From Promicromonospora sp. AC04 (GTDB taxonomy: Bacteria > Actinomycetota > Actinomycetes > Actinomycetales > Cellulomonadaceae), in the NCBI RefSeq assembly GCF_003058225.1, contig NZ_QBUG01000004.1:434001-498000 (forward strand): DNA of 64,000 nt. Reading direction: 5' to 3'. Below are positions 43,529-46,301 of the stretch, one piece after another. Position numbers and translations under genes: made by a program. The first letter of the stretch is position 1, and every line of letters begins with the position of its first letter. Below the pieces are notes generated by a model. That model was not told the origin of the DNA. It was given only the letters and a program-made list of their open reading frames with translations, and did no database searches.

Positions 43529-44839
43529 TTGCGAATCGTCCACGTAGCGAACTTCTACAGCCCCCGCTCCGGGGGCATCCGAACCGCAATGCACGCCATG
43601 GCCGGGCAGTACCTGGCCCGGGGGCACGAACCAGTGCTCGTCGTGCCGGGCAAGCGGGACGGGGTAACGCTCGTGGACGGCGTCCGCGTCGTCAGCCTGG
43701 CGGCGCCGCGCGTGCCGTTCTCCGGCGGATACCGCGCCGTCGTGCAGACCGGCAAGATGCGCGGCCTGCTCGAGACGATCGCGCCCGACCGCCTCGAGGT
43801 GAGCGACCGCACCACCCTCGCCGGCCTGGGCGACTGGGCCCGCGAGGCCGGCGTCCCGTCGCTGATGATGCTGCACGAGCGGGTCGACGGCGTGCTGCGG
43901 TCCTGGCTCCCCGGCGGCGCCGAGGGCGGCCACGCGGCGGCCTTCGGCGCAGCGGCGACGCCGGCGCTGGCCGACCGGTACAACCTCGCCACGCTCACCC
44001 GGTTCGACCGGCTCGTGGCCACCACCCAGTTCGCGGCGGGCGAGGTGGAGCGCCTGGCCGCCCGCGTGCGGGGCGCCGCGCTCCCGCCGCTGTACCGGGT
44101 GCCGCTGGGCGTGGACCTGGAGCGGTTCCGGCCCGATCGGTACTCGGACGAGGCCCGCGCCCAGTACGCGCCGCCCGGGACCACGCTCATCGTGCTCGCG
44201 AGCCGCCAGTCCACGGAGAAGCGGCCCGACCTCGCGATCGACGCCGCGGCCCAGCTCATGCGGGACGGCCGCCCCGTGCGGCTCGTCGTCGCGGGCTCCG
44301 GGCCGCTCCTGCCGAAGATGCGGCGCCGGGCGGAGGCCGCCGGGCTGCCGCACCGGTTCCTCTCGTTCATCCCCGATCGCGACCGGCTCGCAACCCTGCT
44401 GACCTGCGCCGACGTCGTCGTCGCACCCGGACCGATCGAGACGTTCGGGCTCGCTGCGCTGGAGGCGCTGGCGTCCGGGACGCCGGTGGTCTGCAGCTCG
44501 TCGAGCGCGCTTCCCGAGGTGGTCGGTACTGCCGGCGCGTCCGCCCCGCCGGACGCGGCGGCGCTCGCCCTCGCGCTGCACGACGTGCTGGACCGCGACG
44601 TGGACCAGCGGCGCAAGGCGGCCCGCGCCCGCGCCGAGCTCTTCCCGTGGAGCGCCACCGGCGACGCGATGCTCGAGCTGCACTCTCGTAAGGCCTTCGA
44701 CCTGGCGCCGGATCCCGTGGTCCACGAGCCGGCCCGGCTCGAGCACGCCGAGCCGGCGGTCCCTGCTCCGGTGGTCCCCGACCCGGTCGCCCCCGATACG
44801 ACCGGCCCGATCCACGTGGGCACTGTGGGGCGACGGTGA
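43529..44839 (+). CDS. GT4-family glycosyltransferase
   Basis: A 436-residue GT-B enzyme beginning LRIVHVANFYSPRSGGIRTAMHAMAGQYLARGHEPVLVVPGKRDG at an unusual TTG start at 43529, supported by GGAGG six nt upstream and by the close fit to the family opening. The donor motif is VAPGPIETFGLAALEALASGTPVV near 305-330. It follows MgtA after one nt and is followed by an SGNH hydrolase, so this set may build and trim a mannosylated glycolipid. A Pro/Val-rich 40-residue tail ends it. Confidence 0.87.
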   Translation: MRIVHVANFYSPRSGGIRTAMHAMAGQYLARGHEPVLVVPGKRDGVTLVDGVRVVSLAAPRVPFSGGYRAVVQTGKMRGLLETIAPDRLEVSDRTTLAGLGDWAREAGVPSLMMLHERVDGVLRSWLPGGAEGGHAAAFGAAATPALADRYNLATLTRFDRLVATTQFAAGEVERLAARVRGAALPPLYRVPLGVDLERFRPDRYSDEARAQYAPPGTTLIVLASRQSTEKRPDLAIDAAAQLMRDGRPVRLVVAGSGPLLPKMRRRAEAAGLPHRFLSFIPDRDRLATLLTCADVVVAPGPIETFGLAALEALASGTPVVCSSSSALPEVVGTAGASAPPDAAALALALHDVLDRDVDQRRKAARARAELFPWSATGDAMLELHSRKAFDLAPDPVVHEPARLEHAEPAVPAPVVPDPVAPDTTGPIHVGTVGRR

Positions 44840-44840
44840 G

Positions 44841-45962
44841 ATGACCTCGCCGGCGGGACGCGAGCGCTGCTTCCGACTGGTCGCCCTCGGTGACTCGATC
44901 ACCGTGGGCGTCGGCGACACCGTCGGTCCCGACGCCGTGCACGGCCCCGGCTGGGCCGCGCATCTCGCGGCCGTGCTCGGCGTGGGGCAGTTCACCAACC
45001 TCGCCACCAACGGCGCCCGCTCCCGCGACGTCGCGGACACCCAGCTCGACGCCGCGCTCGCGCTGCGGCCCCGGCTCGCGACCGTGCTCGTGGGTGGCAA
45101 CGACGTGCTCCGCAGCGACTTCGACGCGCGGCTCATGCTCGCCGACCTGCACCGGTGCGTCAGCGAGCTGTGCGGCGCCGGTACCGACGTCGTGCTCGTG
45201 CGGCTGCCGGTGATCGGCCTCTTCGAGCTCAGCCCGCGGCTCGTGCGCCGCGTCATGCGACGCCGGGTCGCGTCGATCAACGCGGCGGTGGAGGAGGTGG
45301 CGGCGGCCGCTCGGGCGAGCGATCCGGATGCCGGTGGACCGGCTGCGAGTTCGGTCCCTTGCAGTGAGGCGACACCGAGATCGGTCGGTTGCCTCGAGAT
45401 CGGTCAACCGATGGACCGATCTCGAGGCAAGGAACCGATCTCGGATCAAGGACTGAGCAAGAGACCGATCTCGGCGCGCGGACGGGTCGTCGTCGTGGAC
45501 GCCGTGCACGCAATCGCACCCGCCGGGGCCAGGGCCTGGCACGTCGACCGGGTGCACCCGTCGCCGGCCGGGCACCGTCGGCTGGCGCTGGGCGTCGCGA
45601 TCGCGCTGGCGAACCTGGACCCGGTGTACGAGATCGCTCCGGGCGAGGCGCCCGCCGTCGGACAGACGGCACTTGCCGGGCAGGCGACCCCGGCCGGGCA
45701 TACGTCGTGCGGGGCGCGGGCGACAGCCCTCGCCGCCCGGCTCCCCGAGGCGCCCGACCCGCCGTCGGCGTGGCGACGACTGGTCTGGCTCCTCGGGGCC
45801 GGGCTGCCGTGGTGCGTGCGCAGGGGCCGGGACTTCCTGCCCGGCCTGCTCCGCGCCGTCGTGCACGACCTGCGCTCGGAGCGGGCGTTCACGCCCGGCG
45901 GCATGGTGACGAGCTTCGCCGACTCGGGCCTGGACCCCCGCCGTCGCATCGGCCGGAGCTGA
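44841..45962 (+). CDS. SGNH/GDSL hydrolase with an in-frame palindromic repeat insertion
   Basis: A 373-residue SGNH hydrolase. Block I is LVALGDSITVGVGD near 11-23, block III VLVGGNDVLRSD near 85, and block V is DRVHPSPAGHRR near 235, so all catalytic residues are present. Between the helix AAVEEVAAAARAS (about 150) and VVVVDAVHAIAP (about 215) lies a stretch of about 45 residues encoded by a symmetric palindromic element (45346-45473) that stays in frame and is not typical of the family. The C-terminal 110 residues are an unusual basic extension. It is the last gene of the glycosyltransferase operon and could deacylate or trim its product. Confidence 0.87.
   Translation: MTSPAGRERCFRLVALGDSITVGVGDTVGPDAVHGPGWAAHLAAVLGVGQFTNLATNGARSRDVADTQLDAALALRPRLATVLVGGNDVLRSDFDARLMLADLHRCVSELCGAGTDVVLVRLPVIGLFELSPRLVRRVMRRRVASINAAVEEVAAAARASDPDAGGPAASSVPCSEATPRSVGCLEIGQPMDRSRGKEPISDQGLSKRPISARGRVVVVDAVHAIAPAGARAWHVDRVHPSPAGHRRLALGVAIALANLDPVYEIAPGEAPAVGQTALAGQATPAGHTSCGARATALAARLPEAPDPPSAWRRLVWLLGAGLPWCVRRGRDFLPGLLRAVVHDLRSERAFTPGGMVTSFADSGLDPRRRIGRS
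45346..45473. repeat. 128-nt symmetric palindromic element inside the SGNH hydrolase gene
   Basis: Six copies of CGAGATCGGTC or its complement lie at 45346, 45376 and 45395 (one strand) and 45414, 45433 and 45463 (other strand). Two of the six differ by one base. The spacings 30-19-19-19-30 are mirror-symmetric about 45409.5. The inner 17-bp arms (45389-45405 and 45414-45430) are perfect with an 8-nt loop, and the 60-nt arms align with scattered mismatches. Units read CGAG-N9-TTGC. Confidence 0.88.
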
Positions 45963-45971
45963 CCCGGCGGC

Positions 45972-46301
45972 TCAGGCCGCGGGAACGACGTCCACGGCCT
46001 GCGGACGCATGGCGTCGATGATCCGGGTCCAGTTGTCGCCCCCGTGACCGTGCTCGCGGGCCCAGGTGTAGTACGCCTGGACCGCCGCGGGCAGGCCGTC
46101 GGCGAGGCTCAGGATCAGGAGCTCGCTCGCCGCGAGGGCGTCCGCGGGTGTGGCCGCGAGCTTGGCGCCGGCCGCGACGACGTCGGCGGCGCGGCTGGGC
46201 GTCCGGTTCCAGACCGTTACCTGGTGACCCTCGGCGAGCAAGGTCCGGACCATGGCCTGGCCCATCGGGCCGAGGCCGATCAGGGTGACGGGGGTGCTCA
46301 T
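45972..46301 (-). pseudogene. Internally deleted beta-hydroxyacid dehydrogenase/IRED paralogue
   Basis: A 109-residue frame starting MSTPVTLIGLGPMGQAMVRTLLAEGHQVTVWNRTPSRA, the complete dinucleotide-binding start of the family. After about 70 residues it jumps to AYYTWAREHGHGGDNWTRIIDAMRP, which resembles the C-terminal end of full-length members. Some 190 residues, including the catalytic lysine domain, are missing without a frameshift. Its ATG overlaps the upstream paralogue's stop by 4 nt, so it may still be translated. It is either a remnant of a tandem duplication or a NAD-binding minidomain. Confidence 0.7.

Follow-up and report, generated by a model that had tools for sequence, protein, structure and literature searches.

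Palindromic DNA that is translated within proteins has been reported from Rickettsia, Wolbachia and Methanocaldococcus (PMC2996958), and REPs, which lie near gene 3' ends, also occur inside genes in several other genera (PMC3733652). In the passages of PMC10969869, PMC3733652 and PMC2996958 on which the comparisons below draw, coding palindromes are attributed to bacteria living inside cells, an archaeon and genomes rich in REPs. Among the literature matches listed, titles and opening lines of abstracts mention neither protein-coding palindromes in actinobacteria nor the repeat described here, and a Frankia genome paper carries the term "palindromic repeat" (PMC4447401).

As far as the passages go, the palindromes of Rickettsia, Wolbachia and Methanocaldococcus are dispersed, lie in frame in unrelated genes, code for unstructured segments with a conserved peptide and have some copies outside genes. 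The element described here, found in a gene of Promicromonospora, is alike in all these respects. It differs from the Rickettsia palindromic elements (RPEs), as described there, in belonging to another phylum with another GC content, in its 17-bp units, arrayed inward with a period of 30 or 31 nt, and in having most copies outside genes, behind stop codons; the likeness is one of description. The resemblance to RPEs proposed in the earlier note is supported, as a similar way of working rather than as proven membership, with copies in frame in eight distinct proteins, the segment missing in some homologues (of the SGNH hydrolase, Ada-AlkA, the DUF2264 protein and the helicase) and one preferred frame. 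The notion of a new class was too strong, given the coding palindromes already described in the three genera above and the intragenic REPs of several others. On balance, we favor with fair confidence the reading in which the segment belongs, as a single copy, to a nearly genus-limited, dispersed, non-autonomous palindromic family, together with the scheme of binding arrays and in-frame survival set out in the last section.

The palindrome in the SGNH hydrolase gene

The window, which is the whole stretch of 64,000 nucleotides analysed, contains the following features.

44841..45962, + strand: SGNH/GDSL hydrolase host gene, 373 aa (open reading frame; PF13472, E 7e-24; PF00657, E 2e-14; Promicromonospora orthologues)
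45346..45473, no strand: palindromic element of six sites (the first three on +, the last three on −) at spacings of 30-19-19-19-30; it codes for residues 169-211 (arithmetic from the coordinates)
45346..45362, + strand: outer left 17-bp unit (CGAGTTCGGTCCCTTGC), from the unit consensus
45376..45392, + strand: middle left unit (CGAGATCGGTCGGTTGC)
45389..45430, no strand: central hairpin with an 8-nt loop (45406-45413) between 17-bp arms that match perfectly (45389-45405 and 45414-45430)
45395..45405, + strand: inner left site
45414..45424, − strand: inner right site
45427..45443, − strand: middle right unit, one base off consensus
45457..45473, − strand: outer right unit

The earlier note had described six opposed sites, two of them with one mismatch, spaced 30-19-19-19-30. 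The coordinates bear this out, with CGAGATCGGTC at 45346 (+, one mismatch), 45376 (+), 45395 (+), 45414 (−), 45433 (−, one mismatch) and 45463 (−), and the inner 17-bp arms are perfect as claimed, since 45389-45405 pairs fully with 45414-45430. The alignment of the 60-nt arms "end to end" was true of sites and spacing only. The arms are identical at 44 of 60 positions, and because the outer linkers agree at just 7 of 19, compared with 31 of 33 in the sites and 6 of 8 in the spacer, the match does not extend to the linkers.

Allowing one mismatch, CGAGATCGGTC has 11 matches in the window, a number reached in none of 100 shuffles, and the arm score of 44/60 was unique among the 63,870 positions tested with equal arm length and gap. 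Folding of the element gave z-scores of −6.57 as DNA and −7.36 as RNA, equalled in 0 of 200 shuffles each. All seven Rfam matches in 44800-46000 were under the gathering score. Five of them overlap the element and are microRNA models, which a long hairpin may match by chance, and a known RNA family was rejected.

The host gene, whose best relatives among named genomes are from Promicromonospora, is uninterrupted across the element: 44841-45962 is open and conserved sequence picks up in frame downstream. The placement between catalytic motifs was also correct, with conserved GGND (residues 85-88) and DRVH (236-239) flanking the element; these motifs are presumably catalytic blocks III and V. 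In the AlphaFold model (run on 13 sequences, mean pLDDT 69.6), residues 165-210 of the hydrolase have a pLDDT below 50 and lie between a helix (133-159) and a strand (216-220). In this gene the element would be a passenger, making a disordered loop between the catalytic motifs longer, and a catalytic role is not expected.

A dispersed family outside and inside genes

Searching the own genome (6.85 Mb) revealed many further copies of the palindrome. Forward-strand matches to the exact core numbered 25, with none for the reversed control; a looser core gave 45, compared with 1 for its control, and BLAST with a 141-nt query gave 89 matches, many of which are both strands of a single copy. Exact cores, on which these range counts rest so that diverged relatives elsewhere would escape, were present in 12 of 13 genomes of the genus, the own genome included (2 to 37 each), and in one of 137 other genomes drawn from the taxonomic family, which has 2. 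In an order-level draw of 396 genomes, with the genus represented by the own genome only, no other genome had an exact core. Genome G111 is the sole one of the 13 genus genomes with no exact core, and its helicase linker retains a decayed copy; perhaps it holds a family gone silent.

A catalogue of 112 copies from six genomes was compiled at up to 4 mismatches over both inner sites (own genome 43, G117 29, G048 13, G087 12, G097 8, G128 7). It is a partial sample skewed to well-conserved cores: the exact forward places used were 13 of 13 in G048, 7 of 8 in G128, 12 of 17 in G087 and 8 of 21 in G097, while those of G117 were taken from 41 places found with the looser core. At L131, four calls that overlapped within one array were merged, and L253, a poor match inside a gene (score 5, 7-nt loop), was left out, giving 112 and not 113. 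A sequencing-adapter artefact was discarded, since the family also occurs in the one-contig genome G117 and among differing flanks. The observation itself is confirmed, and both checks proposed in the earlier note, the genome search and the comparison of homologues, favor a dispersed, inserted element. The alternative of an ordinary protein loop, with DNA palindromic by chance or codon bias, draws on the open frame and on a helicase peptide that persists in several species (see below), and on nothing else. Yet this DNA is found again between genes and within unrelated ones, and the window holds no equally symmetric place; the copies elsewhere rule this explanation out, leaving it a practically negligible probability.

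The repeat unit of the family is a 17-bp motif, YGANNTCGGTCNNTTGC, in which NN is variable, as are the linkers. Units form arrays that face inward to a central hairpin. A 19-19-19 four-site core, whose inner part is the hairpin, was present in 93 of the 112 copies, with further units on one or both sides at steps of mostly 30 or 31 nt (over all copies, 101 steps of 30 nt, 74 of 31, 7 of 29 and 7 of 32). Copy length ranges from 30 to 305 nt with a median of 128 (n = 112). Unit number is often unequal between the two sides, the commonest arrangements being 3+3 (26 copies) and 2+2 (15), and the maximum is 12 in total. A second subfamily, with centre CAGGCCTG and often with outer sites like TGCCGACCTCG, exists alongside the main one in the own genome (L077, L078, L080, L085, L090, L128 and L129).

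Genes were called with a purpose-made codon-usage caller, not taken from annotation, and their 5' ends are uncertain. On this basis, 102 of the 112 copies lie outside called genes, usually directly behind a stop codon, in convergent (35), codirectional (55) and divergent (12) contexts. For codirectional copies the median distance is 28 nt to the upstream stop codon and 131 nt to the following start, with the stop closer than the start in 51 of 55; five overlap a called gene end. At L068 (C2 of the own genome) and L251 (C1 of G117), paired copies 1.3 and 1.4 kb apart, respectively, stand around the same small gene, with conserved neighbours, syntenic surroundings and every copy behind a gene. 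A composite transposon was rejected there, as the enclosed protein matches no transposase family in Pfam; all that appears is an AbiEi_1 match below threshold, in one species of the two (20.5 bits, cut-off 22.2).

The location at 3' gene ends, together with the long stable RNA hairpin, is what an RNA element would show, that is, a family of transcription terminators or 3'-end stabilisers. In favor of the palindromic family preferred here, the stem covaries, with Watson-Crick cells at 90% (78% in shuffles) and 355 double-change cells versus at most 171 across 300 shuffles, which ignore relatedness. Against an RNA element, mismatched stem pairs on the transcribed strand of codirectional copies were G-U in 44 cases and A-C in 42. 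Since G-U does not exceed A-C, there is no RNA-level bias, and the palindrome symmetry is probably kept at the DNA level. Furthermore, outer units are often unpartnered on the opposite side, called genes contain ten copies, with the frame continuing far past the element in nine cases, and no intrinsic terminator (a GC stem followed by a T-run) was detected in 45200-45700, around the window copy, the one copy scanned. An RNA element is thus considered unlikely.

Nine orthologous pairs of copies gave 270 stem positions for comparison. Seven were changed on both arms and complementary in both species, two were changed on both arms and non-complementary, and 26 were changed on one arm; 1.7 double changes are expected if arms change independently, in numbers that are small and with one-sided changes outnumbering matched ones. 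In the orthologous copies L269 and L302 of close relatives, two bases have changed, with each arm mirroring the other (GGTC/GACC to GGCT/AGCC), which is what hairpin-templated correction or conversion would give.

Nine orthologous pairs also bear on a host-functional, BIME-like element, by which the array would bind a nucleoid protein or topoisomerase behind genes under selection and the intragenic copies would be by-products. Conservation is higher at inner (191/198) and outer sites (181/198) than in the spacer (124/144) and loop (58/72). This agrees with such a role, as do the helical-turn-like spacing with free linkers and the stop-codon-side placement in 51 of 55 codirectional copies. On the other hand, no binding protein is known, exact cores are entirely missing from G111, and the element is missing at junctions of close relatives that retain both flanking genes. 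We would give a BIME-like function a real but minority chance.

These junctions were compared using G077 as the close relative of G128 and G006 as that of G097, where the distance filter dropped two of the 15 loci of G128 and G097. Of the 13 intergenic junctions obtained, nine have a core between the same flanks and three have none (L267, L287 and L291), while at L273 the element stands beside the left flank in the relative and the right flank is relocated. With nine of 13 copies common to the close relative, recent movement does not appear frequent. Compared with the more distant of two genomes, the element was in one of six junctions (L293) and not in the other five. The L287 site in G006 retains a lone unit. 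Other local repeats have expanded beside the element at L293/L320 in G006, not in G097.

In-frame copies and their orthologous sites

Ten of the 112 copies lie in frame inside genes, in eight distinct proteins. The hosts in the own genome are the SGNH hydrolase, a DUF2264 protein, an MrfA/HRQ1-type helicase and Ada-AlkA; those in G117 are an MFS transporter (at its C-terminal end), a 1130-aa protein with no Pfam match, an amine oxidase and an MPAB/Lcp-type protein; and Ada-AlkA and amine oxidase appear again in G048. There was no in-gene copy among the 27 from G087, G097 and G128. In nine of the ten gene-resident copies the reading frame runs on well beyond the element. The L237 copy forms the extreme C-terminus, and the L241 and L244 copies are in the N-terminal third, where uncertain 5' ends matter most. 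In-frame copies would be translated, giving the protein a flexible linker or loop.

Outer spacings inside genes were 30 nt in 15 of 16 cases and never 31 nt; the remaining one, of 32 nt, belongs to a weak extra (fourth) site of the window copy with 4 mismatches. Outside genes there were 86 spacings of 30 nt, 74 of 31, 7 of 29 and 6 of 32. Comparing 30 with 31 nt in and out of genes, the Fisher test gave 1.9e-4 per spacing, where spacings are not independent, and 0.037 per element (7/7 versus 36/66).

Phase 0 is used by 8 of the 10 in-frame copies and 6 of the 8 proteins, with the SGNH hydrolase in phase 1 and the DUF2264 protein in phase 2. Read in phase 0, the element gives similar peptides in non-homologous proteins, such as AEVGSSHRDRSSDEPNSMQRADL in the helicase and AEVGSWHRDRSRPGPISMPSADL in Ada-AlkA. 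For the copies outside genes, phase 1 was open in 140 of 204 cases, phase 0 in 69 of 204 and the remaining phase in 70. Since phase 1, and not phase 0, is most often open there, the preference for phase 0 in genes may reflect the peptide.

Orthologues of the SGNH hydrolase were found at E 1e-40 in nine of the 12 other genus genomes (G064, G048 and G123 gave none). G077, G105 and G128 have a shortened version with four sites and an unchanged frame, in which GAGACC/GGTCTC replaces GAGATC/GATCTC at the inner sites of both arms, bar a few mismatches. A single perfect 17-bp unit is left in G117, and G111, G087, G006, G097 and G031 have no unit (up to 2 changes) and no core, with a shorter site-like string seen by eye in G097. 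Hence the segment is missing or reduced in relatives, as the earlier note had supposed of an inserted element. The insertion itself may be surmised from this distribution, presence and absence being compatible with gain and loss alike. The lone units in G117 (SGNH) and in G006 (L295 or L287) make loss likely at those sites. The pattern of an ordinary conserved loop, with the segment everywhere and synonymous changes only, is absent from these orthologues.

The other hosts show further states. The Ada-AlkA peptide occurs in six of 11 aligned relatives (G077, G087, G031, G048, G105 and G123), an alignment that omits G128, where the gene is split over two contigs. The DNA palindrome is strong in five of the six carriers (16-19 of 20 pairs), with arm letters partly different yet matched, while G077 scores 13 of 20 and relatives without the peptide 12-14, which is background. 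By eye, the helicase peptide is kept in seven of 12 relatives, eroded in three and missing in G087 and G123. The best palindromes there were in G048 (16), G117 (15) and G111 (14 of 20), the other four being at the background level of 12-13. Since this peptide persists while DNA symmetry has fallen to background in several species, the helicase copy now seems to act as an ordinary linker. For the DUF2264 protein, the peptide was found in none of ten aligned relatives, and neither unit nor core in the seven scanned as DNA.

Mobility, proposed mechanism and meaning

A transposon-driven origin, as a REP/RAYT system or an IS-derived MITE, would account for a dispersed palindrome that is mainly at gene 3' ends and sometimes intragenic, as REPs are in the passages seen (PMC3733652). 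According to these passages, the element resembles REP/BIMEs in being limited to a lineage, in standing near gene 3' ends with convergent and codirectional gaps preferred, and in having some intragenic copies, DNA-repair genes included (here Ada-AlkA and the MrfA/HRQ1-type helicase). In contrast to REPs as described there, neither end tags nor G-T stem pairs are in excess and the own genome lacks a Y1 transposase, and the element measures 30-305 nt (median 128), where a REP has 20-40. Y1_Tnp had 0 matches in the own genome, with the positive control found in five of 14 genomes. In the 112 copies, the end tags GTAG and CGTC occurred 10 and 41 times, and 14 and 65 times in stretches 200 nt away, a control given without its total. 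Target-site duplications of k = 4-8, in a test that takes the outermost called site to lie close to the real end of the element, numbered 60, 20, 3, 0 and 0 of 112, compared with means of 61.2, 20.0, 5.3, 1.2 and 0.3 for re-paired flanks. Therefore, a RAYT-driven REP is not supported, in terms of Y1 transposase, end-tag excess and target-site duplication, and a known transposon-driven family is regarded as very unlikely.

With MITEs the element shares its short, gene-less, inverted-repeat form, but no target-site duplication was seen, its symmetry is central and its ends are variable. A parent IS with matching ends was looked for in the loci retrieved and among phages, plasmids and viral contigs, and none was seen there; the phages, plasmids and viral contigs contained neither a match to the element nor a carrier. 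PARCEL, as the passage describes it, is also palindromic DNA in tandem coding units, but it is a 25-residue repeat with membrane proteins, whereas here units of 10 residues lie in loops and linkers (PMC2996958).

The evidence supports a gene-less, dispersed palindrome built of phased units, which is the reading preferred here. In the accompanying scheme, a DNA-binding protein would recognise the 17-bp units, given that these are conserved whereas the linkers are not, and that the spacing is about three helical turns. The putative protein would act on the DNA palindrome, as a cruciform or hairpin, and would copy, move or correct the element. Copies in coding DNA would survive only if the frame is kept and a tolerant loop is struck; one 30-nt unit gained or lost there would amount to ten codons. 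A bolder proposal, which we put forward tentatively and regard as doubtful, is that this is a new class of coding palindrome: a phased protein-binding array whose 30-nt period equals ten codons, which grows and shrinks behind genes and in proteins, and whose arms are kept symmetric, even in coding DNA, by correction at the DNA level (hairpin templating or conversion among copies).

The phased-unit design offers a handle on the trans-acting factor; to our knowledge, that of RPEs is not known either. The family is present through its host genus, whose members are free-living soil actinobacteria with high GC content, and a single site can be full, short, eroded or empty. Since several states of one site are found in related species, how palindromes turn into protein sequence becomes directly testable; mobile-looking DNA would thereby become protein sequence, as an extra loop.
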